NCBI GenBank assembly: GCA_020161655.1
Contig: JAIUPC010000009.1
Location: 186,001 to 250,000 of the forward strand
Direction of reading: 5' to 3'
Length of the DNA stretch: 64,000 bases
Source: Pseudomonadota bacterium
GTDB lineage: Bacteria > Pseudomonadota > Alphaproteobacteria > Rhodobacterales > Rhodobacteraceae
The notes beneath the pieces are model-generated. The model was not told the DNA's origin and made no database searches. It saw nothing but the letters and a program-made list of their open reading frames with translations. The position numbers were made by a program, and so were the translations under genes. Within the stretch, counting starts at the first letter, position 1. Every line of letters begins with the position of its first letter. Below, piece after piece: positions 25,017-58,438 of the stretch.

Positions 25017-25092
25017 TGGCGACCCCGGCAGGATTCGAACCTGCGACCTGCCGCTTAGGAGGCGGCCGCTCTATCCCCTGAGCTACGGGGCC
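25017..25092 (-). tRNA. tRNA-Arg (anticodon CCT)
   Basis: A 76-nt cloverleaf on the minus strand. The acceptor stem GGCCCCG pairs with CGGGGTC (one G-T pair), and the D-arm TAGCTCAG is present. The anticodon stem GCCGC/GCGGC holds the loop CTCCTAA (anticodon CCT, decoding AGG). The T-arm GGTTCGAATCC is intact and the 3' CCA is encoded. It sits 22 bp after the PerM-type gene. Confidence 0.95.
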
Positions 25093-40567: not shown

Positions 40568-40901
40568 TCCCTCCCCCACGTTGGGGGGAGGGAGGCGCCT
40601 TGGCGGGCGAGGTCCGGGGTAGGGTGCGCATTCATTGCGCACCATTCTCCCGAGGTTGCCGAAGCCCGAGGCCATCGCCTCGGGCGCCCGTGAGCGGGTG
40701 CATCCCGTCGCGGCCGTGCGCCTGACGCACGGTCGGCGCCCGCCCTCCGGGCGGCGGGCGCATTCGCACCCGCCAGGGCAGGCGCCGCCCGTGCCCCAAT
40801 CGTCCGGCGCGAGTGGAACCCCCCTTGGCGCTTCCTTGCGTCAGCGCCAATCGGCCCGGCCAACGCGCCACCGGCGCGTCGGCTTGTCGGGCCAAGGGGG
40901 G
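40568..40901. repeat. Cluster of six palindromes in a non-coding GC-rich stretch
   Basis: Between the SPW gene and the AT-rich gene (40395-40949, 555 bp without a convincing gene) lie six inverted repeats. They are at 40568-40577/40584-40593 (TCCCTCCCCC), 40623-40630/40636-40643 (GGTGCGCA), 40664-40672/40677-40685 (GCCCGAGGC), 40714-40720/40726-40732 (CCGTGCG), 40736-40744/40753-40761 (GCGCCCGCC) and 40819-40829/40891-40901 (CCCCCCTTGGC, with smaller hairpins inside). None is followed by a T-run, so these are not ordinary terminators. They resemble REP-like or MITE-like intergenic repeats. Confidence 0.6.
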
Positions 40902-40949
40902 AGTTTGGTAGGGCGGGGTTTACCTCGCGCAAATGCTTGCTCGAAAGGA

Positions 40950-41690
40950 TCAGATTACGGGGCGAGCGGTTAGACTGGCCTCGTCAAAGTCAAACACTTT
41001 TTCGACTTCCGATCTCAGACCAAGAGACTGAGACTCAAACTCAATCCAGGATTCCGCAAAGGGTTCAACAAAATCTGCAAGGTATTCCTTGCCTTCGGCA
41101 AATGCTGGAGCGATGTAGTGCTGCGGAGTTCCACCTCCAGCAGAATACGTTACGCCTGGTGTAATAAGAAGTATAGCATCAATAGCCGGCGATGAGCGTT
41201 TCAGAGCATGTCCAGAGAGGTTTCTCAACAGTTCTATTGGGCCGAAAAGAAACTCGTTCAGGTTCGCCACTATGAGTATTGCATCGTGTCGCGCCCCTAT
41301 CAAAGATCGTGTCGAAACAATTTGCTCATTTGCCTTGCGCACCAAGTTCTTTAGAGAGTTCTGAATTCTATCATTTACCTTTCGCGCCACACACTTTGGC
41401 AGTTTTGCGCGCCCATTTAGCCACTCGTCGCGCAGTTGTGGGCGGTACTTCTTTCGGGCCAATTCATCATCAACTAGCTTTAAAATTCGCTCTTTGGAGT
41501 TGTGATTTTCATTTAACGTTTTAAGCTCCACTATTATACTTTCATTCGGGAAAAAGTAGTCGGCAGACTTCTTACTCGCGATAGAAACATCTCTGAAAAT
41601 GTCATCCACGCGCCGCCCCTCATTATAGCCTGCGACAAAGCGGTCAAACAAATTCTCGAAGCTAGATGCTTTAAATGCTGATTCGGTCAA
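40950..41690 (-). CDS. AT-rich hypothetical protein with PD-(D/E)XK-like motif
   Basis: Protein of 246 aa, not assigned to a named family. Its base composition is clearly more AT-rich than all neighbours, and its codon use (many AAA, ATT, TTT, AAT) is unlike the rest of the window, which points to recent transfer. The region DYFFPNESIIVELKTL has Asp at 44 and Glu-x-Lys at 55-57, the spacing and hydrophobicity of the PD-(D/E)XK nuclease core (Asp, then E-x-K on a beta strand). It starts at TTG 41690, five bases past the uvrB stop; GAGGAG abuts the TTG with no spacer, so the true start is uncertain. Function unknown; a nuclease or defence role is inference. Confidence 0.6.
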   Translation of the reverse strand: MTESAFKASSFENLFDRFVAGYNEGRRVDDIFRDVSIASKKSADYFFPNESIIVELKTLNENHNSKERILKLVDDELARKKYRPQLRDEWLNGRAKLPKCVARKVNDRIQNSLKNLVRKANEQIVSTRSLIGARHDAILIVANLNEFLFGPIELLRNLSGHALKRSSPAIDAILLITPGVTYSAGGGTPQHYIAPAFAEGKEYLADFVEPFAESWIEFESQSLGLRSEVEKVFDFDEASLTARPVI

Positions 41691-41694
41691 CTCC

Positions 41695-46468: not shown

Positions 46469-46545
46469 GGTCCCGTAGCTCAGTTGGATAGAGCAGCTGC
46501 CTTCTAAGCAGCGGGTCGGGGGTTCGAATCCTCCCGGGATCGCCA
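46469..46545 (+). tRNA. tRNA-Arg (anticodon TCT)
   Basis: A 77-nt cloverleaf. The acceptor stem GGTCCCG pairs with CGGGATC (one G-T pair) and the D-arm TAGCTCAGTTGG is present. The anticodon stem CTGCC.. holds the loop CTTCTAA (anticodon TCT, decoding AGA). The T-arm GGGGGTTCGAATCCTCC is intact and the 3' CCA is encoded. A broken aquaporin gene follows it. Confidence 0.95.
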
Positions 46546-46589
46546 GTTTCCAACACAGTCGCTGTGCTGACGCTGGCGCCCGATCCATC

Positions 46590-46985
46590 CTGGGGCCGCT
46601 CTCTGGCGAGCATTTCAACCCCGCCGTCGGTCTGATCTTCGCGCTGCGGGGGGAGATAGGGCCCGGCTTGGCACTGGGATATGCAGCGGCGCAGGTCATC
46701 GGCGGCATCGCCGGTGTTTGCTGGCGCATCTGATGTTCGATCTGCCGGTCTGGCAGGTGTCCTCCACCGTCAGGACCGGCTCCGGCCAATGGCTGGCCGA
46801 GGCGGTCGCGACCTTCGGCCTTGTCGTCACGATCATCGACGAGCTTCGCCAATCCGGCAGCGGCTGTCGCCCGCGCCTTCAGCGATACCTTCGCCGGCAT
46901 CCGTCCGGCGGACGTGCCAGCCTTCGTCGTGGCGGAGCTTGCCGGTGCAATCATAGCGCTCTGCGTGAAGCGCTGGCTTTTGAGG
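46590..46985 (+). pseudogene. Degraded aquaporin/aquaglyceroporin (MIP family) gene
   Basis: Three fragments of one MIP-family protein appear in different frames. Frame 1 (about 46590-46716) has SILGPLSGEHFNPAVGLIF with the first NPA box. Frame 2 (46718-46840) has LAHLMFDLPVWQVSSTVRT then TGSGQWLAEAVATFGLVVTII. Frame 3 (about 46845-46985) has SFANPAAAVARAFSDTFAG with the second NPA box, then IRPADVPAFVVAELAGAIIA. The start is missing, and about 25 residues between TII and SFANPA appear deleted. It therefore carries at least two frameshifts and an internal deletion. It resembles the ars-cluster type of aquaporin. It ends at the left attachment repeat. Confidence 0.8.
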
Positions 46986-47015
46986 GAAGTGGTGGCGAGG
47001 GAGGGACTCGAACCC
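46986..47015. repeat. Left attachment site (attL), duplicate of the tRNA-Met 3' end
   Basis: Thirty bases, running from GAAGTGGTGGCG to CTCGAACCC, identical to 58358-58387. They cover the tRNA-Met acceptor 3' strand, the T-arm and part of its loop, with no cloverleaf remaining on this side. The flanks differ in both directions. Confidence 0.88.
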
Positions 47016-47070
47016 AATTCGTATTAACCCAATGAAATGACTTGTTTTCAATGAAGTATATGCCTACTGG

Positions 47071-47093
47071 CTGGTCAGAATGGCTGGTCAGAA
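47071..47093. repeat. Left copy of a 23-bp internal repeat (possible arm-type site)
   Basis: CTGGTCAGAATGGCTGGTCA plus GAA, identical to 58266-58288 in the same orientation. It contains the unit GGCTGGTCAGAA twice in tandem. It lies 55 bp inside attL and 10 bp before the integrase start, so it could bind integrase or repress it. Confidence 0.6.
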
Positions 47094-47102
47094 AGGCGCA
47101 GA

Positions 47103-48521
47103 ATGGCAGGCAAAAGCAAGAAAGCAGGGCAGCGGCTTCTGGTCCTAAAGTATAGCCGCTGGTGGTTCCGCAGGGAAATCCCGGCAGCCTGTCGGAAGGC
47201 GATGGGACGTGGGCGGTACTTCATGGAGAACCTCGAAACCTCCGACCTGAAAGTCGCGCAGGGTCTCCGGGACGAATTGGAACGCTTCACCTCGGAGACC
47301 TTCGCGGCGATTCGGTCGGGCAAAACCATGGCGGCGGCAGCGTTGACCGCCAGAGAACAGGGCATCCTTGCCCGCGAAGCTATCATTGTCGCAGCAGACC
47401 ACGATACGGGCGAACCAGAGGGCAACCCCTTCGATGCTGCCTTGTGGGCCGCAGACGCCGCCGCAGAGGGCTTCCGCAGCGAGGCTGACAGGGACGCATA
47501 CCTTGACGCTCTGCATGGCCGGGACGCCGTGGAGGCGCACCTTGACGCGCACCTTGCGACTCTCAGGAGGAACAAGATCGTTGAGAAGTCGGTCAAGGAA
47601 CGCGAGGGGCTGATCCTGGCCTTTGCCACATGGGCGGCGGCGCAGAAGCCAGCCCTGACCCTTGATCGGATCGACCGCAAGCAAGCCGGGAAGTACGTAG
47701 CCGAGAAGCTGGACGAGCTGCATCCGAAAACTCAGTCCAAGCACCTGATGGCGCTGCGTGGATACTGGGTCCAGCTTGCCGCTCGGGGTTTGGTCGAGCT
47801 TCCCCAGCAGGAGCCTCGGGGGTCAGGCTGGCCGTGGAACGCGCAGCAGATCAGGAACAAGCCGACAAGGGCCGAGAGGGAAAGCCGGAGTGACAAAGAA
47901 CGGACCTTCACTGAGGCCGAGGTCAAGGCCCTGCTTTATGCGCCCTATCCCGAGGGGATGACCGCAGAGCATGAGGCCCAGATTAGGGACGCAATCCGCA
48001 TGTCCCTTCTGTCGGGGATGCGCATGGCCGAAGTTCTGAAACTGTGGGTCGATGATGTGAAGGAAGCCGAGGATGGCGCTGAGCTGATCTTCGACATTCA
48101 GGAAGGCAAAACGGACGCAGCCGCCCGGCCTGTCCCCGTGCATCCCGATCTAGTCGATGTCGTTCAGCGCCGTTTGAAGGACAAGGACGGCAACGACAAA
48201 CCGGGCGGCGCATGGCTGTTCCATGAGCTTGCCGACGAACGCGATCCTGGAGATACCTTTGGCAAGAGGTTTGCACGGTTCCGCAAGAACCTCGGCGTTG
48301 CCGACAAGCGCGAAGGCAAGCGCCGTAGCCTCGTCAACTTCCATTCGGCACGTAGATGGTTCGCCACGACAGCGGCGAGGGCTGGGCAGCACGACGCGGT
48401 GATCCAGGATGTGATCGGCCATGAGCCCGACGAGAAGAACGTGACGAGGCGTTACATTGCAATGTCGTCTAGGGCGCAAATGCGGGCCTGTGTCGAGGCC
48501 GTGAAGTTGCCGTCGCCATAG
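47103..48521 (+). CDS. int: Tyrosine site-specific recombinase (island integrase)
   Basis: Phage-type integrase of 472 aa. The N-terminal part (residues 1-90) has basic arm-binding character (LVLKYSRWWFRREIPAACR), followed by a helical core-binding domain. The catalytic domain has the first Arg in LLSGMRMAEVLKLW and the box HSARRWFATTAARAG (His, Arg), then IGHEPDEKNVTRRYIAMS with the nucleophile Tyr. It should catalyse integration at, and excision from, the tRNA-Met 3' end. The ATG follows the 23-bp repeat by 10 bp. Its position next to attL, reading inward, is typical. No excisionase gene was recognised. Confidence 0.93.
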   Translation: MAGKSKKAGQRLLVLKYSRWWFRREIPAACRKAMGRGRYFMENLETSDLKVAQGLRDELERFTSETFAAIRSGKTMAAAALTAREQGILAREAIIVAADHDTGEPEGNPFDAALWAADAAAEGFRSEADRDAYLDALHGRDAVEAHLDAHLATLRRNKIVEKSVKEREGLILAFATWAAAQKPALTLDRIDRKQAGKYVAEKLDELHPKTQSKHLMALRGYWVQLAARGLVELPQQEPRGSGWPWNAQQIRNKPTRAERESRSDKERTFTEAEVKALLYAPYPEGMTAEHEAQIRDAIRMSLLSGMRMAEVLKLWVDDVKEAEDGAELIFDIQEGKTDAAARPVPVHPDLVDVVQRRLKDKDGNDKPGGAWLFHELADERDPGDTFGKRFARFRKNLGVADKREGKRRSLVNFHSARRWFATTAARAGQHDAVIQDVIGHEPDEKNVTRRYIAMSSRAQMRACVEAVKLPSP

Positions 48522-48634
48522 GCGCGGGGTTTACCGGGGGAGCGACAGAAGCCGCTCCGCCCCCCTGCTCGTGGCTCGGGTGCCTTCGCCAAAAGGTGCA
48601 TCTGCACCCTTCTACTACATGCACCCTCTGACTG

Positions 48635-49492
48635 TCAGAACTGCGGTTCCGGCTCTTTGCTGTCGTCGACCTCGTCGTCATCGACAGAGTTGCCATCTCG
48701 AACATGGTCCAGCCACTCGTTGGCCTCGTCCGGGTCGCCAAAGTAGTACCCGAACATGCGCTTGATCCGCTTGTCGCCCAGCGCCTCAAAGATCGCTTCC
48801 TCAACCGCATCGCCGTCCATCAGGATCAACCGCTCAGGGTGCTTCCGGCGGTCGAACAGTTCCCGAATGTCCGCCGCTAGCTTCTCGACCTCGGCTTTGC
48901 GCAGAGCCTCGGTCATCGTCCCGGCAGGATCGTCGGTCCATTCTGCGCTCGTCCGGTCCCGTGACCACTGACCCGTGATCTCGATTCCTTCCTCGTGCAT
49001 GACCCGGAAGCGGTCCCGCATATACTTGACCGTTCGCATCGAAACGTCCGCAGCAGCGACGATCTCACGGACCTTGAACCGGGGCACGACAAGTTCCCGA
49101 ACAAGCCGCCACGCGGCGTCCATCCGTTCGGCCTGTGACAGCCCCAGCGCGCGCTTGGAGTTCGCCTTCAGCGCCGCCCCAAGTGCCGTCCGCCGATCCG
49201 CGCCGACGAGGACCATGGTCGGGATTTCTCCCAACCACTTCACCGCGCGGTAGGCCGCGAGCCGGTGCGCACCGTCCAGTAGGATCAGCCTCCCACCGGC
49301 CTCGGGCTGCCACAACAGCACCGGGTCGAGCGCCTTCCCGGTGTTCCTGATGGTGCTCGCGAGGTCCGCTTTATGGGCCGCGTCAATGCCGCCCCAGCGG
49401 AACCAGAAGTCATCGTCCTGCGTGATCCCGTCGAGGGCGACCGAAGCCGCCCTCCTGATCGTTGCCGGGGCGATCTTGGTCATCACTGTCAT
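48635..49492 (-). CDS. ParB-like nuclease-domain DNA-binding protein
   Basis: Protein of 285 aa. The N-terminal ParB/Srx-type domain is visible in WQPEAGGRLILLDGAHRLAAYRAVKWLGEIPTMVLVGADR. It is followed by a helix-turn-helix region (LSQAERMDAAWRLV and FKVREIVAAADVSMRTVKYMRDRFRV). The C-terminus is acidic (DDDEVDDSKEPEPQF). This layout is that of island-borne ParB-like regulators or partition proteins. The start (ATG 49492) overlaps the stop of rnhA by 4 bp, so the two genes are co-translated. No parA is present, so chromosome partitioning is unlikely; a regulatory or stability role for the element is inferred. Confidence 0.8.
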   Translation of the reverse strand: MTVMTKIAPATIRRAASVALDGITQDDDFWFRWGGIDAAHKADLASTIRNTGKALDPVLLWQPEAGGRLILLDGAHRLAAYRAVKWLGEIPTMVLVGADRRTALGAALKANSKRALGLSQAERMDAAWRLVRELVVPRFKVREIVAAADVSMRTVKYMRDRFRVMHEEGIEITGQWSRDRTSAEWTDDPAGTMTEALRKAEVEKLAADIRELFDRRKHPERLILMDGDAVEEAIFEALGDKRIKRMFGYYFGDPDEANEWLDHVRDGNSVDDDEVDDSKEPEPQF

Positions 49493-50016
49493 GCTGCGCT
49501 CCCGAACAGTTCCTGGGCGTGCTTGCGAACCCACTTGTCGCGCTCCTCGGATGCAAGTCGGTCGGCCTCCTCGTTCATCGGGTCGCCCGCATGGCCTCGC
49601 ACCCACTCAAAGGTGACGTTCAGGCCGTCGCAGAGGCGGATGATCTCCCGCCAAAGGCCAGGGTTTTCAACCGGCTTGCCGTCCCCCTTGCGCCACCCCT
49701 TGGCGATCCAACGGGGCAGCCATTGGTTCCACCCGTCGACCAAGTATTTGCTGTCACTACGCACGAAGATCGGCAGCGGTTCGTCGCGCTTGATCTGCTT
49801 GAGTGCCGCGATTGCCGCGCCCAGTTCCATCTGGTTGTTGGTCGTCGCGACCGCCCCGCCCGTTTGCTCCATCGGTACAACTACTTCGCCGTTGATGAGG
49901 CGATACAGGATTGCGGCGAAGCCTCCCGGCCCCGGGTTCGGCTGGCAGGAGCCGTCGGTGTAGATCACGATGCAGTTGGGATAGGGCAGCGCGGCCTCGG
50001 TATTTGCGTTTGTCAA
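49489..50016 (-). CDS. rnhA: Ribonuclease HI (island copy)
   Basis: RNA-DNA hybrid endonuclease of 175 aa. The DEDD residues are visible in VIYTDGSCQPNPGPGGFAA (Asp), TNNQMELGAAIAAL (Glu), VRSDSKYLVDGWNQWLPRW (Asp) and EWVRGHAGDPMNEEADRLA (Asp plus the His of the handle loop). Length is close to other type HI enzymes, with a short Ala-rich C-terminal tail. It is carried by the mobile island, overlaps the ParB-like gene by 4 bp, and follows the zinc-ribbon gene by 11 bp. The host also has rnhB at 18876-19511. Confidence 0.9.
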   Translation of the reverse strand: MTNANTEAALPYPNCIVIYTDGSCQPNPGPGGFAAILYRLINGEVVVPMEQTGGAVATTNNQMELGAAIAALKQIKRDEPLPIFVRSDSKYLVDGWNQWLPRWIAKGWRKGDGKPVENPGLWREIIRLCDGLNVTFEWVRGHAGDPMNEEADRLASEERDKWVRKHAQELFGSAA

Positions 50017-50027
50017 AGGGTCATCCT

Positions 50028-50687
50028 TTAGCTGAGTTGGGAGATTGCGGTGGCGAGCCGCTGTTTCGCCTCTTGCGCGGCCTTGCGGTCGCGGTCGTCC
50101 AGTGCCGCGAGGTGCAGTCCGATGGCCCCAAAGGCGATCATCAGCTTGCGCCCGAGAATGCCCGCCGCCTTGGGCGTCATCTCGCGGTAGACCCGGACTT
50201 GCTGGCCCGTCCGGTGGTCGTAGCGCAGTCCGACATGGCGCTGCGATAGTGCCCGCACCCGTCGCGCGATCTGGACCCGAAGGGCCTCGTCGGACGCAAA
50301 GCGGCGCGGTTGGTCGTGCCAGAAAAGGACCATAGCGAGCACGGTCCTGATCACCTCACCGGGAGTGCAGTCCAAGGCGATTGCCGCGATTTCGTTCGCG
50401 GCGCTGCGCTCGTATCTGTTCCCGACGCGGCGGTTGGCGGTGGCATTGGCCTCTGCGATGATGGTGGTCCATGTTCCCTCCATCAGTGACCACGCCTCGC
50501 TGTCAGGGTTCTTGGCGATGCGGGCCTCTACGCGGGCCAAGTAGGGGGCAAGTTCGGCTTTGGCGATGCCGCGCTGGCCAGTTGCACCATGCCGCCTGAG
50601 AGTGCTTTTGTGGCGGCGGCAATAGGGGGAGTAGTCGGAGGCGGCGGGACTGCCGCAGTGGAAGACGGCGCAGAGACGGGCCGTCAT
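50028..50687 (-). CDS. Hypothetical protein with N-terminal zinc-ribbon-like motif
   Basis: Protein of 219 aa with an N-terminal Cys/His cluster, LCAVFHCGSPAASDYSPYCRRHK (C6, H10, C11, C22, H25), that may bind zinc. Helices rich in Ala and Arg follow (KAELAPYLARVEARIAKN, ALRVQIARRVRALSQRHVGLRYD). The C-terminus is AAQEAKQRLATAISQL. No conserved catalytic motif is seen and the family is not recognised. It is the first gene of the rightmost minus-strand trio with rnhA and the ParB-like gene (11-bp and 4-bp junctions). A nucleic-acid-binding role is suggested only by the Cys/His cluster and the context. Confidence 0.6.
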   Translation of the reverse strand: MTARLCAVFHCGSPAASDYSPYCRRHKSTLRRHGATGQRGIAKAELAPYLARVEARIAKNPDSEAWSLMEGTWTTIIAEANATANRRVGNRYERSAANEIAAIALDCTPGEVIRTVLAMVLFWHDQPRRFASDEALRVQIARRVRALSQRHVGLRYDHRTGQQVRVYREMTPKAAGILGRKLMIAFGAIGLHLAALDDRDRKAAQEAKQRLATAISQLS

Positions 50688-51388
50688 AGTTTGGCCTCGC
50701 CTGTGGGGGCTTGGCCGGTCGTATCGTGGCTCAGGGAGTTCTCCTTGGATTTGTACCCGTCCCCAGACACACAGGCACAGCCTTGATGCGGAGCCGGGAT
50801 CGGCGAGGAAGGTTTCGCCCCTGCCGGGGCATCGTCAGCGGGGCAGCATCAGCCCCGGACCTTCGCTGAAACCGCTCTCGCGGCTTTGCCCTTCACGCAT
50901 TGGATTGCGACCATCGGGCCAGAGGCATCCACCTCCGTCTATCGTGCGTGGCCCCGTGTCGTGGGTCAGACGTACCAGCATTCTGGGCTGGCACCGGCCA
51001 CCTTGCGGCGGAAAGAGCATTGCCTGAACGGGAATCCCGCTGGGGCTGACTGATCGTCAGGAGGGTTTTGCAATGAGCCGCACACTTCGCACTGTTGGCC
51101 TGTGCTCTGTCGCGGGAAGCGCGCCTACATTCCGTAGGGCGGATTGCGGTTCTGTCTGGCGGGCGGCCCGTCCCTGAGGGGAGGAGCCAATCAGGTTGGC
51201 GGGCAACTGCCCGATGCAGAGAAGTATGCCCTGCCCATCGCCGCACTTCAAGATCTTTTTTGTAATAAAAACAACACGTTAGCGCATCAGATTGTTATTT
51301 TGTGCGTCTGCTGAATTGAGCAGAAGTTTCAAAGCCTTGGCCAATTCTTGTGCCCAAATGCTTGAACCGTCAGGAAAAACGGCGGAAT
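50688..51388. other. 701-bp stretch of the island without a convincing gene
   Basis: Open frames here lack family resemblance and codon bias. The segment 51250-51345 is markedly AT-rich, containing TTTTTT-GTAAT-AAAAA and TTGTTATTTTG. It lies at the 3' side of hsdR and upstream of the zinc-ribbon gene. It may hold the promoter for the leftward trio or a terminator for the hsd genes, but neither could be defined. Confidence 0.4.
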
Positions 51389-53707
51389 TTACTGCCGATA
51401 CAGGTCTCGCTGCACATCGCGGAAGGCTTGCCGGATCGTCGGCACGTTGCCCAGTGCCGCCCTCGCATCCGCCAGCGAACCATAGCGCGCCGTGAGGAGG
51501 TCGCCGAGCTTGCCCGTCGCCAACTCCGTCTCGCCTACCGCTTCGTAGGCTTGCAGGACGCCCAGCAGGAACGCCCGCATCTTTGTGTCCGCTGATGCGA
51601 GGCCATTGGTCCTGACCGCTTCGGCGCGATCTGTGCGAGTCTTGGGCGGGGTGTTGAAGCGGATGTAGACCAGCACGTCGAACAGATCGCTGTCCGGGGC
51701 GTCGATCAGGCGGCGCATGTCGGCCAGCTTGTCGGCGTCGTAGCCGCGCTGTTCAAGAACGGCCATGAAGTGCTCGCGGCTGTCCGGGTCGCTCCATAGG
51801 CGGCGCAGTTCGTCCTCGTCAGGGATCATGTCGGTCAGGTCGCCGAACAGGCGCTCTAAGAACTGCTGCGCCGTCATGGGCTTTCCGTCGGGCCCCCAGT
51901 AAGTTGTCGCGGCGATGTACTGGATAGAGCGTTCCTTGCCGTCCGCCAGCCGGATGATCAGCTTGGCTTTCGGTTCCTCACCCTCCCCTTCCCCGCCACC
52001 TTCGGGCGGCTCAGGGGGCAGAGGGGGTTCCGGCTTGGGGCCGGGCGGGGGCGGTGGATCGCCTTCGGGCGGCATCGGTTCGCCGTCCCATTCGGGATCG
52101 TTGAAGTTCTCATGCGCCTTCACGAAGTCATAGATCGTGAAATGATCCTTGCCGTCGTAGACCCGCGTTCCGCGCCCGATGATCTGCTTGAACTCGATCA
52201 TCGACCGGATCGGCCGCATCAGCACGATGTTGCGGACGTTGCGCGCATCGACCCCGGTGGAGAGCTTCTGCGAGGTCGTCAGGATCGTCGGGATGGTCTT
52301 GTCGTTGTCCTGAAACGCTCGCAAGTGCTGTTCGCCGAGCTTGCCGTCATCCGCCGTGACGCGGTGGCAGTAGTTCGGGCTCGTGCTCGTCTTGATCTGG
52401 TTGATGTAGTCGCGCACCCGCAGCGCATGGTCCTGCGTGGCGCAGAACACCAATGTTTTCTGCCGCTGGTCGATCTGGCCCATGAACTCGGCCACCCGGC
52501 TACGCTCGCGTTCCTCGATGATGATGCGCGTGTTGAAGTCGGCCTCGGTGTAGGTGTCCTTGTCCACCTCGCCCGCAACGATCTCATCTGTCCCGTCCCA
52601 GACGTATTCGTCAATCGTGCTGGCCATCTGGCGCACCTTGAACGGCGTGAGGAAGCCATCCTCGATCCCCTCGCGCAAGCTGTAGACATAGACCGGATCG
52701 CCGAAATAGGCGTAGGTGTCGGCGTTATGCTTGCGGCGGGGCGTGGCGGTCAGGCCCAACTGCACGGCGGGAGCGAAATGGTCCATGATCCCGCGCCAGT
52801 TGCTTTCGTCCTGCGCGCCGCCCCGGTGGCATTCGTCGATGATGATGAAGTCGAAGAAGTCGGGCGGATAGCCTTCGTAGCTGGGCTTGCCGTCGCCCGT
52901 CATGAAGGTCTGGAAGATCGTGAAGAAGATGCTGGCGTTCTTCGGGACGCCGCCCTTCTTGCGGATCGTGTCGGGGTCAATCCGGGTGATCGCATCCGGG
53001 GGGAAGGCAGAGAAGGCGTTGTAGGCCTGATCCGCCAGAATGTTGCGATCCGCCAGAAACAGGATGCGCGGGCGGCGCCTCGGTTCACCCGAGAGGTTCC
53101 AGCGGGCGTGGAACAGCTTCCAGGCGATCTGGAAGGCGATGGAGGTCTTGCCCGTGCCGGTGGCCAACGTCAGCAGGAGGCGCTTGTCGCCCTTCGCCAC
53201 GGCCTCCAGCACGGCATTGATGGCGTTGTGCTGGTAGTAGCGCAGTTCCCACTTGCCGCCCGCCACCTCGAACGGCACCGCGCCAAAGCGTTCGCGCCAC
53301 TGGTTCGCATCGCCGAAGCAACGGTCCCAAAGCTGATCGGGCGTGGGGAAGGGCTGCACGTCGCCTTCCGTCCCGCTGCCCATGTCGGCCTCGTACCAGC
53401 CCAGCCCGTTGGTGGCGTATGCAAGGCGGGCTTTGAGGCGGGTGGCATAGTCCTTGGCTTGCGCCACGCCGGTGGTATGGGCCAGACCCGCCCGCTTGGC
53501 CTCGATCACGGCAAGTTTCTGGTCGCGGTAGATCAGGACGTAATCGGCGCTGAGGCGATCCCCGCGCTTGCCCCCCGGCATGATGCGACCGGGGCAGATC
53601 ACCTCGCGCCGCACCCTGGCCCCCGGAACCGTTGTCCACCCCGACGCGGCAAGGACCGGATCAATCCGGTTGGCGCGGGTATCGGATTCGGTTTCGGTGT
53701 CGAACAT
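51389..53707 (-). CDS. hsdR: Type I restriction endonuclease subunit R (HsdR, EcoEI/KpnA-like)
   Basis: Motor and nuclease subunit of a type I restriction system, 772 aa. The nuclease PD-(D/E)XK motif is at residues 55-71 (LSADYVLIYRDQKLAVIEAKR: Asp 55, Glu 69, Lys 71). The helicase Walker A LATGTGKTSIAFQ is near residue 185, the DEAD box is DECHRGGAQDESNW, and motif VI is QIIGRGTRVYDGKDHF. A proline/glycine-rich linker (about 555-590) precedes the C-terminal domain that docks to the methylase. Length is shorter than EcoKI HsdR and fits the EcoEI class. It starts 14 bp after hsdS on the same strand. Confidence 0.92.
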   Translation of the reverse strand: MFDTETESDTRANRIDPVLAASGWTTVPGARVRREVICPGRIMPGGKRGDRLSADYVLIYRDQKLAVIEAKRAGLAHTTGVAQAKDYATRLKARLAYATNGLGWYEADMGSGTEGDVQPFPTPDQLWDRCFGDANQWRERFGAVPFEVAGGKWELRYYQHNAINAVLEAVAKGDKRLLLTLATGTGKTSIAFQIAWKLFHARWNLSGEPRRRPRILFLADRNILADQAYNAFSAFPPDAITRIDPDTIRKKGGVPKNASIFFTIFQTFMTGDGKPSYEGYPPDFFDFIIIDECHRGGAQDESNWRGIMDHFAPAVQLGLTATPRRKHNADTYAYFGDPVYVYSLREGIEDGFLTPFKVRQMASTIDEYVWDGTDEIVAGEVDKDTYTEADFNTRIIIEERERSRVAEFMGQIDQRQKTLVFCATQDHALRVRDYINQIKTSTSPNYCHRVTADDGKLGEQHLRAFQDNDKTIPTILTTSQKLSTGVDARNVRNIVLMRPIRSMIEFKQIIGRGTRVYDGKDHFTIYDFVKAHENFNDPEWDGEPMPPEGDPPPPPGPKPEPPLPPEPPEGGGEGEGEEPKAKLIIRLADGKERSIQYIAATTYWGPDGKPMTAQQFLERLFGDLTDMIPDEDELRRLWSDPDSREHFMAVLEQRGYDADKLADMRRLIDAPDSDLFDVLVYIRFNTPPKTRTDRAEAVRTNGLASADTKMRAFLLGVLQAYEAVGETELATGKLGDLLTARYGSLADARAALGNVPTIRQAFRDVQRDLYRQ

Positions 53708-53721
53708 CGGGCGAGGTTAGG

Positions 53722-54924
53722 TCACGTCAGTTCGCCTGAGAAGGCTTTTTGCAGAAGGGCTTGGCGGAGCGCATCAAGTTGCGAGATCGTCGCTTGATAG
53801 TGGCGTTCAAGTGCGGAAGTTGTGGCGTTCACTTCCTCGATCTGGCTCACGGTTTTTCCAACTGCCCCAAGATCGGGAAAGGGCATTTGGAACTGCGCCA
53901 AAGCCTGACCAGTGAAATGTTGAATGCCAGACCCAGTGAAGTGCTCCTTTAGCTGTTCCGTGGCGTCCTTCATGAAAAGAAAGTACATCAAGAACGTTGC
54001 ATATGCCGGGTTTGAGAAACGAACGCGATGCAGTGCCTTCTGGAAGAAAACCGGCTCATCCTTGTCCCAAACCGCCGCACGACCGGGATAGCCGCCTTCG
54101 CAAATCAGCAAATCGCCTTTCTTCGCAGAGTAACGATCCACCTCCCGATCCTCGATCCGCATTTCCAGCATGTCGGACGTGTCGACCTCAAACCAACGGA
54201 CGTTGATGTTTCTGAGGTAGGGGCGCAAGGCGCCTTGGTTCTTGTTCTTGTCGAGCATTTTGCCCAAGCAATGTTCGGCAATATCACCAATTCGACGAAG
54301 GGAGTGGAGCCGCTCGCATTCAGCAAACAAGTTACGAAGATGGTTCAGGGCAAGAACTTGCGCATCCGCAAGGTTGGCTTTGGCGTTGGCACGGGCGCGG
54401 GAGAGGCCCTCGAAAGCTTCATCCAGTACCGCAACGATCCGCTTCTGTTCGTTCAGCGTCGGGAGAGGGATGGTGACATTGCCCAGATTTGCTCGGCTAA
54501 TTCTAAGGCGCGTCGTGCCAGTGCTGCGCGCGGCAATCTCTGACAGGTAGTCGCGTGACTGAGCGAAGTACACGAAGAACTCTGGATCCATCGCTGAGCG
54601 ATCAAACCGAAGTATGGTGCAGTCAACCGCCGTAATCATCCGCTCCCCGGTTTCGGGAATGATACATGCGCGCCCCACGGGGTCAGGCAGTCGCGAAATC
54701 AAGCAATCCCCCGGACGGATTTCAGTGCACCGAATGCGCTTGAAGGTTTCTTCACTGATGAAGCGTGCTTTTTCAGCGCGATCCTTGAACACGCCGTCAC
54801 CAACATTGCCAGTCTGGATCAATCGTATGCCGGAGTCCGATTGGTCCTTCGTTTCTATCCAATCTCCATCCGCAAAAGTCGTCGTGACGGTCTGCAACTC
54901 AGCCTTACGCCACCCAACCGTCAC
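53722..54924 (-). CDS. hsdS: Type I restriction-modification specificity subunit S (HsdS)
   Basis: DNA-recognition subunit of 400 aa with two target recognition domains. The first covers about residues 1-160 (GIRLIQTGNVGDGVF, PGDCLISRLPDPVGR). The second covers about 215-380 (IGDIAEHCLGKMLDKNKNQG, KGDLLICEGGYPGRAAVWDK). They are separated by the conserved helical repeats NEQKRIVAVLDEAFEGLSRARANAKANL and EEVNATTSALERHYQATISQLDALRQALLQKAFSGEL. GTG at 54924 overlaps the hsdM stop by 4 bp. The recognition sequence cannot be deduced. Confidence 0.9.
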   Translation of the reverse strand: MTVGWRKAELQTVTTTFADGDWIETKDQSDSGIRLIQTGNVGDGVFKDRAEKARFISEETFKRIRCTEIRPGDCLISRLPDPVGRACIIPETGERMITAVDCTILRFDRSAMDPEFFVYFAQSRDYLSEIAARSTGTTRLRISRANLGNVTIPLPTLNEQKRIVAVLDEAFEGLSRARANAKANLADAQVLALNHLRNLFAECERLHSLRRIGDIAEHCLGKMLDKNKNQGALRPYLRNINVRWFEVDTSDMLEMRIEDREVDRYSAKKGDLLICEGGYPGRAAVWDKDEPVFFQKALHRVRFSNPAYATFLMYFLFMKDATEQLKEHFTGSGIQHFTGQALAQFQMPFPDLGAVGKTVSQIEEVNATTSALERHYQATISQLDALRQALLQKAFSGELT

Positions 54925-56369
54925 AGCAGCCCCCTGATCCGCTCAAGGATTTCCGCCGTCTCGGCATCGCGGGCAAGGATCGCGTCGATGATCGCTTCCG
55001 GGCTGCGCAGCGCCTCGGCCTCTGGCGCGTTGGGGTTCTTCGCCGACAGATCGAAGGTCGCCGCGTCCACATCGGCCACGTCCACAACCCAAGACTTCGG
55101 TCCCGTCACAAACCCACGCTGCAAGGCCACGAACTCGGCCATGTCGTCATCGTTCAGCGGGTTCGTCTTGCCCATGCTGCGGCCCGGATCAAGCTGGTAG
55201 TACCAGATGCGCCGGGTGGGCTCCCCCTTCTGGAAGAACAGCACCACCGTCTTGACCCCGGCCCCCTGAAAGGTGCCCTGCGGGCAGTCCAGGATGGTGT
55301 GAAGGTTGCACGCCTCCAGCAGTTCCCGCCGCAGGGCCACGCTGGCATTGTCGGTGTTGCTGAGGAAGGTGTTCTTGATGACCACCGCCGCGCGCCCCCC
55401 GGCCCGCAGCTTGCGGATGAAGTGTTGCAGAAACAGGTATGCCGTCTCGCCCGACTTGATGGGAAAGTTTTGCTGCACCTCGCGCCGTTCGCCGCCGCCG
55501 AAGGGCGGGTTGGCAAGGATGATGTCGTGGCGGTCCCTCTCCTGATAATCCAGCACGTTCTCGTTGAGCGAATTGGTATGGACGATGTTCGGGGCCTCGA
55601 TCCCGTGAAGGACCATGTTCATGATGCCGATGACATAGGCGAGCGACTTCTTCTCCTGCCCGTAGAAGGTGCGGCGTTGCAGGGTCTCATAATCGCTGGC
55701 GCTGATGTCGGGGCGGCGCAGATAGTCATAGGCTTCGCAGAGGAAACCCGCCGACCCCACCGCGCCGTCATAGATCGTCTCGCCGATCTGCGGATCGGTG
55801 ACGCGGATCATGGCGCGGATCAGCGGGCGGGGCGTATAGTATTCGCCGCCGTTGCGCCCGGCGTTGCCCATGCGGCGAATGCGGGTTTCGTAGAGCGTGG
55901 ACAGTTCGTGCTTGTCGGCCTGGGTCTTGAAGGCGAGCCCGTCCACGATCTCCAGCACGTCGCGCAGGATGTAGCCGGAGCGAAACTTGGACCGCAGTTC
56001 GGTGAAGACCTCAGCGATCTTGTACTCGATGGTGTCGGGGCCGGTGGCGCGGTCATGGAAGCGGGCCAGATAGGGAAACAGGCGGCGGTCCACGAACTCC
56101 ACCAGATCGTCGCCCGTCAGCGCGGCGTTGTGATCGAACTCGCCATTCACCTTGGGCGCGGCCCATTCGTCCCAGCGAAACTCGCCGTCGATGATCGGGC
56201 TGTAGCCCTTGCCTTCCAGTTCGGCCCGGTCCTGCCGCTCGCCTTCCAGATCGTGCAGGTATTTCAGGAACATGACCCAAGAGGTTTGTTCGACGTAATC
56301 CAGTTCGTTGCTGATGCCTTCCTCGGCCCGCAGGGCTTTCTCGATGGCATTGAAGGCGTTTTCGTACAT
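54921..56369 (-). CDS. hsdM: Type I restriction-modification DNA methyltransferase subunit M (HsdM)
   Basis: N6-adenine methyltransferase subunit of 482 aa. The N-terminal helical domain (FNAIEKALRAEEGISNELDYVEQTSWVMFLKYLHDLE) is typical. The S-adenosylmethionine motif I is DGAVGSAGFLCEAYDYL, a variant of the usual DPxxGxGGFL. The catalytic motif IV is ILANPPFGGGERREVQ. GRNGGEYYTPRPLIRAMI is the standard preceding motif. ATG at 56369 follows AGGGGA nine bases upstream; a longer frame continues but lacks similarity. It is the first gene of the hsdM-hsdS-hsdR operon. Confidence 0.93.
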   Translation of the reverse strand: MYENAFNAIEKALRAEEGISNELDYVEQTSWVMFLKYLHDLEGERQDRAELEGKGYSPIIDGEFRWDEWAAPKVNGEFDHNAALTGDDLVEFVDRRLFPYLARFHDRATGPDTIEYKIAEVFTELRSKFRSGYILRDVLEIVDGLAFKTQADKHELSTLYETRIRRMGNAGRNGGEYYTPRPLIRAMIRVTDPQIGETIYDGAVGSAGFLCEAYDYLRRPDISASDYETLQRRTFYGQEKKSLAYVIGIMNMVLHGIEAPNIVHTNSLNENVLDYQERDRHDIILANPPFGGGERREVQQNFPIKSGETAYLFLQHFIRKLRAGGRAAVVIKNTFLSNTDNASVALRRELLEACNLHTILDCPQGTFQGAGVKTVVLFFQKGEPTRRIWYYQLDPGRSMGKTNPLNDDDMAEFVALQRGFVTGPKSWVVDVADVDAATFDLSAKNPNAPEAEALRSPEAIIDAILARDAETAEILERIRGLL

Positions 56370-56439
56370 GCAGCCTGTCCCCTGCGCTTTTCCCCTTCCT
56401 TTCAGAATGAACGCCGAGGGGCAAGGCAGGATGGCCCGA

Positions 56440-57012
56440 TCAGGCGGCGGCCACTTCCTTGGCTTCGTCAAGTATCCTGTAGACGCTCGCCCTGCCGATC
56501 CCGAGGCGCTTGGCGATCTCCGTGCCCCCGACCCCTTCCCGGTGCAGCCGGAGAACATCGTCAGCCTTCGCCCGTGCAGTCGGTGCCCTGCCCTTGTACT
56601 TGCCTTCGGCCTTCGCCTTGGCGATCCCCTCGCGCTGGCGTTCCAGCATGATCTCCCGTTCAAACTCCGCAACGCCCCCGAGGATGGTCAGCATCAGCTT
56701 GCCAGTGGGTGTCGAAGTATCAATGCCCATGCCGAGGATACGGAGCGCCACGCCCTTGGCCTCAAGCTGCCCGAGGATTTCCACCAGATGGGCCACGGAG
56801 CGCGCCAGACGGTCGAGCTTGGTGACAACAAGGGCGTCCCCCTGCCGGGCGAAGGCAAGCGCCTCTGCCAGCGCCTCGCGCTTCACCACGTCCACGGAGG
56901 AAACCTGTTCCTCAAAGACGCGCTCGCAGCCCGAAGCGGTCAGGTCGCGCTTCTGCGCTTCAAGCCCGGCCTTCTGGTCGAGGGTGGAGGTTCTGGCGTA
57001 GCCGATCAGCAT
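56440..57012 (-). CDS. Serine site-specific recombinase (resolvase/invertase family)
   Basis: Small serine recombinase of 190 aa. The catalytic Ser is in MLIGYARTSTLDQKAGLEAQ (Y-x-R-x-S). The conserved DxL-R stretch is KLDRLARSVAHLVEILGQL, and GGVAEFEREIMLERQREGIAKAKAEGKYKGR is the E-helix region. The C-terminal helix-turn-helix LRLHREGVGGTEIAKRLGIGRASVYRILDEA binds DNA. ATG at 57012 has AAGGA nine bases upstream. It is 70 bp upstream of hsdM on the same strand. Whether it resolves the element or inverts DNA cannot be told; no inverted-repeat pair was found near hsdS. Confidence 0.92.
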   Translation of the reverse strand: MLIGYARTSTLDQKAGLEAQKRDLTASGCERVFEEQVSSVDVVKREALAEALAFARQGDALVVTKLDRLARSVAHLVEILGQLEAKGVALRILGMGIDTSTPTGKLMLTILGGVAEFEREIMLERQREGIAKAKAEGKYKGRAPTARAKADDVLRLHREGVGGTEIAKRLGIGRASVYRILDEAKEVAAA

Positions 57013-57051
57013 GGGGGTAATCCTTCTGCGGTGTCTCACTGGGTCTTAGAT

Positions 57052-57081
57052 GTGATACGCCGCTCTGCCTCAATATGTCAA
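57052..57081 (-). promoter_or_regulatory. Sigma-70-type promoter of the serine recombinase gene
   Basis: Read on the minus strand: TTGACA (57081-57076), an 18-bp spacer, then TATCAC (57057-57052), 40 bp before the ATG at 57012. The -35 is perfect and the -10 is fair. Between it and the Abi gene (57082-57388) lie no genes. Confidence 0.6.
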
Positions 57082-57388
57082 CACCATTCTTATGGGACAC
57101 CTTCCGGTAAGCCCTGAGACGACTCGCTAGACCGAGCCCTGTGAGACAGCGAGAGGTCGCACCGCATCGCACAGAGGATCCGCCGGGGCCGATCAGGGGC
57201 AGCGGAGCGAGAAGTCGGAAGGGGCTAGTGGAGGCGCACCGCATGGGCAGCCGAGGGGGCACCGGGGGGTATCGCGCGGCGCTGGCGGTTGAGTCTAGGG
57301 CCTCAGATTTTTCTGCCAAATTTCCGTTGGCTTTACCCAGTTCGGCGGGCGATCATCGCACGGGCTTGTCAAGCGCGGAGAGCAAGAA

Positions 57389-58228
57389 TTGTCCGAACAT
57401 ATCCCATCGCCGCTGATTGGCGTCATAGGTGAGATTTTCAGCGATCATTACACCCACTCTGATATTGACCGGCTCTTTGCCTACGCGGATGCGCCGGGTG
57501 ATCCCCCGGAAGGAAACAAGGTCAAGAAAACCGTCGAATGGCTGCGGCGGACAAACAAATTAGCGCCTGATCCCATCACTATTTTGGGGGCGCTGCTAGA
57601 GGACCTGATGGACAAGGACCCAGATGACGGCACCGCAGCCGCAACATGGCTGTTAGGGGCCGGTTCTGATTCAAATCCACTGCGTCAAAGGCAAGAACGA
57701 ATGCGCGCGGCGCTGGGCAAGGCAGGGCTGGGGTATTCGATTGGTGGTCACATTGGGCCATCCTTGGCAAGCCCGACGCTGACGCTTCGTGAGATGATCG
57801 AGGGCGGTGGCCTGTCCGCAGTCTCAGTCGAAATGGACAGAGCGTTGAAACAGGTCGAGACCGACCCAAATGCAGCGGCCCATTACGCGGCGAACATTCT
57901 TGAAGCAGCCTTCAAGGCGTATCTTGGGAAGAAGGGTGTCCCCTTCGATGACCAAAGGGACACCCTAAGTCGCTTGTGGGAACTGGTCCGGGATTCCCTT
58001 GGCATCAACGCACAAGACCTTGCGTCTAACGATCTGCGAAAAATTGCATCTGGTCTAAATAGCGTCGTGGACGGAACGATGTTCCTTCGTAACAAGAAAA
58101 GCGGCGCGCACGGGCGTACTGAGGCCCAAATCAAAGAGAACGTGCTGCGGCCCCGGCACGCCCGTTTGGTGATCCATTCGGCCCACACGCTGGCGGCCTA
58201 TGTGATCGAATGTTTGGCAGGGAAGTGA
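57389..58228 (+). CDS. Abortive infection family protein (Abi_C-like C-terminus)
   Basis: Protein of 279 aa. The N-terminal half is helical without known motifs. The C-terminal half matches the Abi_C pattern: AHYAANILEAAFKAYLGKKGVPFDDQRDTLSRLWELVRDSLGI, then NDLRKIASGLNSVVDGTMFLRNKKSGAHGRTEAQ and PRHARLVIHSAHTLAAYVIE. The LRNK-SGAHG block is the most conserved part. It is thought to act in phage-induced cell death or growth arrest. The start is TTG 57389 with GGAG eight bases upstream. It is the only rightward gene at this end and lies 130 bp before the right attachment site. Base composition is more AT-rich than the chromosome. Confidence 0.75.
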   Translation: MSEHIPSPLIGVIGEIFSDHYTHSDIDRLFAYADAPGDPPEGNKVKKTVEWLRRTNKLAPDPITILGALLEDLMDKDPDDGTAAATWLLGAGSDSNPLRQRQERMRAALGKAGLGYSIGGHIGPSLASPTLTLREMIEGGGLSAVSVEMDRALKQVETDPNAAAHYAANILEAAFKAYLGKKGVPFDDQRDTLSRLWELVRDSLGINAQDLASNDLRKIASGLNSVVDGTMFLRNKKSGAHGRTEAQIKENVLRPRHARLVIHSAHTLAAYVIECLAGK

Positions 58229-58265
58229 CGAACTAGGTGGAGCGATTCCGGGCTCCTAAAATAAA

Positions 58266-58288
58266 CTGGTCAGAATGGCTGGTCAGAA
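58266..58288. repeat. Right copy of the 23-bp internal repeat
   Basis: Identical to 47071-47093 and in the same orientation, 70 bp inside attR. Together the two copies frame the island just within its attachment sites. Confidence 0.6.
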
Positions 58289-58357
58289 TGGGCCGCATCG
58301 GTAGTCCGATCTGGCGCCTAACCATTTGATTTTAATCGAATTTATGCGCAATCAGGA

Positions 58358-58387
58358 GAAGTGGTGGCGAGGGAGGGACTCGAACCC
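58358..58387. repeat. Right attachment site (attR) within tRNA-Met
   Basis: Thirty bases identical to 46986-47015. Here they form part of the intact tRNA-Met gene (T-arm, acceptor 3' strand, CCA), so the element regenerates the tRNA on integration. Confidence 0.88.
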
Positions 58388-58438
58388 TCGACCTCGCGAT
58401 TATGAGTCGCGCGCTCTAACCAGCTGAGCTACCTAGCC
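58362..58438 (-). tRNA. tRNA-Met (anticodon CAT), island integration target
   Basis: A 77-nt cloverleaf on the minus strand. The D-arm is TAGCTCAGCTGG, the anticodon stem CGCGA/TCGCG holds the loop CTCATAA (anticodon CAT), the T-arm is GAGGGTTCGAGTCCCTC, and CCA is encoded. The acceptor stem GGCTAGG with CCTCGCC has one mismatch, T4 against C69. The pattern fits elongator tRNA-Met; the initiator type is unlikely because positions 1-72 pair. Confidence 0.93.

Follow-up and report, generated by a model that had tools for sequence, protein, structure and literature searches.

We analyzed a 64-kb stretch of DNA (hereafter the window) from a member of the Rhodobacteraceae (Alphaproteobacteria; assembly GCA_020161655.1, contig JAIUPC010000009.1, positions 186,001 to 250,000), and focus here on an 11.4-kb island at 46986-58387 of the window, which lies at a tRNA-Met(CAT) gene and encodes a tyrosine integrase, a serine resolvase, a ParB/KorB-like protein and defense genes. 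Restriction genes on a tRNA island are in themselves ordinary; this island belongs to a wider and apparently undescribed set of small elements with common partner genes and exchanged defense cargo.

The island is bounded by two identical copies of a 30-bp direct repeat (46986-47015 and 58358-58387), which cannot be extended by a single base on either side and delimit a unit of 11,372 bp. ARAGORN places the tRNA-Met(CAT), the integration target, at 58362-58438 on the minus strand; the right copy therefore consists of the last 26 nt of the tRNA plus 4 nt of flank and lies within a complete tRNA gene, and the left copy is the displaced tRNA-Met 3' end. The integrase open reading frame (ORF; 47103-48521, plus strand) starts 87 bp inward of the left copy. 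The initial annotation had described exactly this arrangement, a perfect repeat whose right copy forms the tRNA 3' end and a tyrosine integrase just inside the left copy, and both the exact comparison and ARAGORN bear it out. The pair is the sole exact direct repeat of 30 bp within the window, and only the arm repeat inside the same island, described below, otherwise reaches at least 22 bp. GC content is 56-65% in the eleven 1-kb bins that cover the island from 47001 to 58000; of the other 53 bins, 36 are at 65% or more and the minimum is 53.5%.

As controls, we used 15 same-genus stretches at tRNA-Met or nearby tRNA-Arg genes (13 genomes, 2.7-20 kb each). The longest repeats of their tRNA ends measure merely 9-13 nt (17 tRNAs) and the 30-mer recurs exactly nowhere else in the window, so that a chance repeat was rejected. 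None of the nine annotated island proteins is encoded in these control stretches at an E-value of 1e-4. A sister species of the same genus (G008) has a right flank 93% identical to that of the window, and the joined flanks of the window align to it in a single high-scoring segment pair of 1093 bp (91.5%) that spans the junction, with the 30-mer present exactly once in its 20-kb stretch, where the two flanking alignments overlap. The check that had been proposed, a comparison with close relatives lacking the island, thus succeeded: the empty site has one repeat copy, and both flanks are continuous. Among 22 same-genus genomes, the integrase occurs in only one, namely that of the window (E-value 1e-30), and we rejected the island as a fixed trait of the genus. 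An exact repeat at a tRNA end, an intact integrase inside and a one-copy empty site in a relative together characterize a tRNA-seated tyrosine-integrase island. By this comparison of sequences, the segment is shown to be inserted site-specifically at the tRNA-Met 3' end, with the tRNA restored, and to be missing from the site in the sister species. Four related islands whose ends are arranged alike, presented below, further uphold the suggestion of a distinct integrated element.

From left to right, the island encodes the integrase on the plus strand; the ParB-like protein, RNase HI, a 219-aa protein, HsdR, HsdS, HsdM and the resolvase on the minus strand; and an Abi_C protein on the plus strand. 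The integrase (472 aa; Pfam Phage_integrase, 2.9e-14) carries R307, K336, H414, R417, H440 and Y451, which are invariant in five aligned family members and which we take to be its catalytic residues. The ParB/KorB-like protein (285 aa; 48635-49492) is followed by RNase HI (175 aa; 49489-50016; Pfam RNase_H, 4.4e-36) and the 219-aa protein (50028-50687). The type I restriction-modification system is complete, with HsdR (772 aa; 51389-53707; EcoAI/FtnUII family NF046051, 800 bits for a cut-off of 550), HsdS (400 aa; 53722-54924; two Methylase_S stretches) and HsdM (482 aa; 54921-56369; N6_Mtase 6.4e-57, PADLOC MTase_I 8.9e-152) each at full length. The serine resolvase (190 aa; 56440-57012; Pfam Resolvase, 8.5e-43) precedes the abortive-infection family protein (279 aa; 57389-58228; PF14355, 9.2e-15), whose C-terminus is AbiJ-like. 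The restriction system, Abi-like protein and serine recombinase anticipated in the initial annotation are all matched by profiles; that annotation contains neither the arm-type repeats described below nor the ParB-like and RNase HI genes, nor does it note that the recombinase recurs as a core gene rather than as cargo. Pfam and PHROG scans of the nine proteins, which left small ORFs aside, detected no head, tail, terminase, primase, packaging or capsid families and no relaxase, type IV secretion or transfer families.

The PADLOC AbiJ model aligns only with residues 169-274 of the 279-aa Abi protein (3.9e-13, 47.7 bits). Relatives of this protein occur in 138 of 72,556 plasmid records, which points to an ordinary cargo gene, and the 20 listed ones are annotated as 'abortive infection family protein'. 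It has an R-x6-H string, presumably of the motif type found in HEPN nucleases; a sequence search of solved structures gave nothing informative.

The 219-aa protein has no family in profile scans and was not found at the loci of the other elements. A 41% identical homologue is found on an IMG/VR contig (L119:596-4322) between a resolvase and a ParB-like gene, with a distant integrase in the same row, a set that is possibly a relative of the island catalogued as viral. Two further IMG/VR stretches with a ParB-like gene (L120, L121) were set aside, as L119 alone among the three has both resolvase and integrase. A 38% homologue is present on a Microvirga ossetica plasmid (L123:4772-9615), where a resolvase lies at a distance of about 3.6 kb; this 18.6-kb stretch has no ParB-like gene or integrase match.

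Near both ends of the island are tandem pairs of the 13-bp sequence CTGGTCAGAATGG, all in the same orientation and with a single change in one copy. The left pair (CTGGTCAGAATGG CTGGTCAGAAAGG; 47071-47096, plus strand) ends 6 bp before the integrase ATG; the right pair (58266-58291, plus strand) consists of two copies of CTGGTCAGAATGG. When up to one mismatch is allowed, the 13-mer matches five times in the window, four of them at the island ends, a number of matches reached in none of 100 shuffles.

We then considered elements that carry a related integrase. It was found at an E-value of 1e-40 or better in 4 of 394 genomes of the family, the window's own included (up to four candidates scored per genome), and a further copy lies on a contig (L062) of a metagenome-assembled genome deposited under the label Verrucomicrobiaceae; a profile search of 385 genomes of the class returned nothing at 1e-60 besides the window's own. 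All five elements are bounded by exact tRNA-end repeats, at tRNA-Met in the window (30 nt, 11.4 kb) and L062 (27 nt, 8.6 kb), and at tRNA-Ala in G353 (14 nt, 7.3 kb), G400 (19 nt, 6.5 kb) and G413 (27 nt, 12.5 kb). In each of them the integrase sits at the tRNA-distal end. Paired arm-type copies, scored when they differ from the 13-mer at no more than two positions, are likewise present near both ends of all five and share one orientation. Their distance is 80-98 bp at the left end and 71-121 bp at the right; in G413 the two right copies are separated by 23 bp, and the left pair of G400 exceeds the limit and was found by a separate pattern search. In G400, both left copies and the right-end copies read TGGTCAGCAT in place of TGGTCAGAAT, which is what a joint change of integrase and sites would produce. 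Searched independently of the integrase, the arm-pair pattern occurs in 4 of the 394 family genomes, three times at these elements; it misses G353, whose copies deviate from it. The fourth match (G337) was dropped: it is a local series of similar repeats, and the surrounding 20 kb contain neither a tRNA nor any match to integrase, resolvase or ParB-like protein. The pattern also occurs in eight IMG/VR stretches, which were discarded, none of them encoding an island protein.

All 11 aligned members of the ParB-like family match PHROG 1033 (ParB-like); the Pfam ParB_N domain is matched by only one of them, and the window's own copy has no Pfam family. A structure model built from the 11 sequences has a mean pLDDT of 80 (62 in an earlier model from three sequences), and its best Foldseek match is an RK2 KorB-type complex (2.6e-6, TM 0.37/0.48, 16% identity), followed by ParB and Noc proteins. 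A sequence search of solved structures was not informative, and no ParA was recognised among the nine annotated island proteins. Judging from PHROGs and from the predicted fold, which includes a ParB N-terminal part with DNA-binding helices, the product of 48635-49492 is ParB/KorB-like.

This gene was present at an E-value of 1e-15 or better in 13 of the 394 family genomes, and we retrieved and examined all 11 loci beyond those of the window and G400. A resolvase was found in nine of the 11, as was an integrase related to those of the other elements (L099-L107). These nine adjoin, in order, tRNA-Leu, Arg, Leu, Cys, Asn, Cys, Ser, Ser and Thr genes (seven anticodons), with the integrase on the tRNA side, and exact tRNA-end repeats of 17-19 nt bound 4.3-7.5 kb in six of them. 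The 15 control stretches yielded no integrase, no ParB-like gene and one resolvase. In 270 genomes of the class, the ParB profile gave two matches, the window's own and one in another family (G580), where the ParB-like gene, an integrase, a tRNA-Phe and a weak resolvase match (7e-7) occur together.

The resulting census comprises 14 elements, five found by integrase and nine by ParB. Integrase is present in all 14 (by construction in five), resolvase also in all 14 (13 from cluster ORFs, the window's own from its Pfam profile match), the ParB-like gene in 12 (by construction in nine) and RNase HI in six, the L062 copy being detected by tblastn only. Ten anticodons and eight amino acids are represented among the adjoining tRNAs, and exact tRNA-end repeats bound 11 of the elements.

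Defense cargo was recognised in seven elements, one by a weak match. Besides type I restriction and Abi_C in the window, we found type I restriction in G413 (HsdR 26% and HsdM 29% identical to the window's), type IIG systems in L099 and L101, PD-Lambda-5 A in L107, a weak match to PDC-S05 in L103, and a PARIS-like pair in L100, where an AriA-like ATPase lies beside a DUF4435 protein that is presumably linked to AriB. The cargo scan did not cover every small ORF, and no defense family was detected in the scanned parts of L062, G353, G400, L104 and L105. The cargo of L062 (L062:7350-10704), an otherwise standard element, comprises three proteins (626, 196 and 264 aa) that match neither Pfam nor PADLOC families, and is a candidate unknown defense system. 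A 904-aa protein of L102 matches PADLOC models chiefly through its LuxR-type DNA-binding end. The 4.3-kb L106 holds only integrase, resolvase, ParB-like gene and, by the ORF choice of our script, one 86-aa ORF, and seems to be without cargo.

The similarities among the core genes are not linked. Across the 55 pairs of the 11 elements with all three proteins (L107 was omitted, its ParB ORF being short), identities show rank correlations of -0.003 between integrase and ParB, -0.18 between ParB and resolvase, and 0.05 between integrase and resolvase; because pairs are non-independent and distant identities saturate, these values are a description and not a test. For example, L099 and L100 share 67% identity in ParB and 23% in integrase, and L062 and the window 67% in integrase and 31% in resolvase. 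This lack of linkage suggests that the combination is kept while its parts are exchanged.

Other features of the window were noted outside the island. A 21.5-kb segment (25017-46545) appears inverted relative to the sister species, whose evidence comes from two separate contigs; both breakpoints fall at tRNA-Arg genes (cct, 25017-25092; tct, 46469-46545) that are in opposite orientation and about 86% alike. Between the latter and the island is a gene fragment (46585-46985) that by eye reads as aquaporin-like, and such a fragment also adjoins the empty site of the sister species, but beside the other tRNA-Arg. At 40644-41694, GC drops to 53.5% and the alignment with the sister species is interrupted, perhaps marking a small replaced segment; the sole match of an ORF therein (40950-41690) is phrog_20483, a phage family without known function.

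From these observations, we propose that the island is an element that integrates and excises, bears plasmid-like upkeep genes, is moved by helpers and is retained for its defense cargo, a reading of the sequence to which we give a probability of roughly 80%. The integrase would bind the paired 13-bp arm sites flanking the 30-bp core and recombine the copy on the circle with the tRNA end. Because the left arm pair ends so close to the integrase start codon, bound integrase probably represses its own gene. The resolvase and the ParB/KorB-like protein may maintain the circle after excision, or else tandem copies, by resolving dimers, by silencing or by partition; in some members RNase HI may contribute. 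Host protection would come from the cargo, the restriction system together with the Abi protein, and the island would be kept for that reason. As no relaxase, transfer or capsid family is found in the nine annotated proteins, helper plasmids or phages most likely move it.

Several observations weigh against this proposal. The sequence data gave no sign of a circular form, an excision factor or transfer, and since no gene was recognised as a replication initiator, it is a guess that the circle replicates. No ParB-like gene is detectable in G353 and G413, and the 14-nt repeat of G353 barely exceeds the control maximum of 13. At two loci, G024 and G164 (the latter close to a contig end), the ParB-like gene is not accompanied by island genes. 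The only candidate far end of L102 is a 14-nt repeat 17.7 kb away, and neither L099, which begins at a contig end, nor L107, in which no repeat was found, has a mapped far end. The resolvase of L107 (L107:8986-9532) matches in two different frames and so looks frameshifted, and a resolvase also turned up in one control stretch.

Restriction-bearing islands at tRNA ends are common, and the genes of this one could have accumulated independently around an integrase that is the sole functional core; the unlinked similarities of the core genes, notably the near-zero correlation of integrase and ParB, would agree with this. Yet resolvase in every element and a ParB-like gene in 12, against one and none of the 15 controls, the recurrence of the core beside so many tRNAs, and the little that L106 holds beyond the three genes make independent accumulation rather improbable. 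Somewhat easier to entertain, although still unlikely, is an integrative mobilizable element whose relaxase escaped recognition or which has an origin of transfer alone. Its size and cargo would fit, and the 219-aa protein and several small ORFs have no assignment; against it stand the absence of relaxase families from the nine scanned proteins and of the 219-aa protein from the other elements.

A prophage remnant or phage satellite that has lost its packaging genes appears to us the least probable origin. A tyrosine integrase at a tRNA and PHROG families matching integrase, RNase H, invertase and ParB would be consistent with it, as would the gene set of the IMG/VR contig L119. According to one study, tRNA-Met(CAT) is the tRNA most used by Paracoccus prophages, and ParB-like genes are found at phage methyltransferase/terminase loci (PMC6536676). 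The nine scanned island proteins, however, include no head, tail, terminase or primase family, and the recurrent compact architecture is not that of decay. Moreover, the integrase has zero matches in 50,697 phage records, no relatives in two pattern-seeded IMG/VR scans and only two distant plasmid matches (29-33% identity across 56-68% of the query), which leaves a phage or plasmid origin for it unsupported.

A bolder proposal can be made, which we hold tentatively and at somewhat less than even odds. The island may represent a class of its own, made up of alphaproteobacterial micro-islands that measure about 4-13 kb where their ends are mapped. In this class the trio of tyrosine integrase, serine resolvase and ParB/KorB-like protein would be kept while its individual parts swap between elements, with a plasmid-like phase after excision and one defense system shuttled at a time. 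If this is true, the unassigned cargo of L062, G353, G400, L104 and L105 would be candidate new defense systems. Part of bacterial immunity rides on small mobile islands without transfer genes, which lends interest to how such islands persist and move. The recurring three-gene core provides a sequence handle that finds defense islands, helps to mark their ends and points to untried cargo. It also raises the question of why an integrated island retains a ParB-like protein and a resolvase, genes usually tied to plasmid upkeep.

Tycheposons, Gamma-Mobile-Trio islands and PICMI satellites are compact integrase-bearing islands with cargo or defense genes, and their core genes differ from the trio. 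The GmtY recombinase model scores 25.2 bits for a cut-off of 340, which places the island outside the Gamma-Mobile-Trio. We found no description of an integrase-resolvase-ParB trio with swapped defense cargo in the open-licence papers searched, and the accessible part of PMC11476347 mentions neither 'ParB' nor 'resolvase'. The full-length HsdR, HsdS and HsdM resemble EcoAI/FtnUII systems with nothing unusual and represent cargo. The 285-aa protein shares its predicted fold with RK2 KorB, ParB and Noc, but differs in its low identity and TM scores, in having no recognised ParA alongside and in its location on a small integrated island; ParB-like proteins are also reported from archaeal conjugative elements (PMC6563490). 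Another close parallel is offered by the Islander-type tRNA/tmRNA islands (PMC4383910), with their displaced and regenerated tRNA ends, internal integrase and empty site in a relative. Unlike these, the five integrase-found elements all have the integrase at the tRNA-distal end, the other nine having it beside the tRNA, and resolvase and ParB-like genes recur as its partners.

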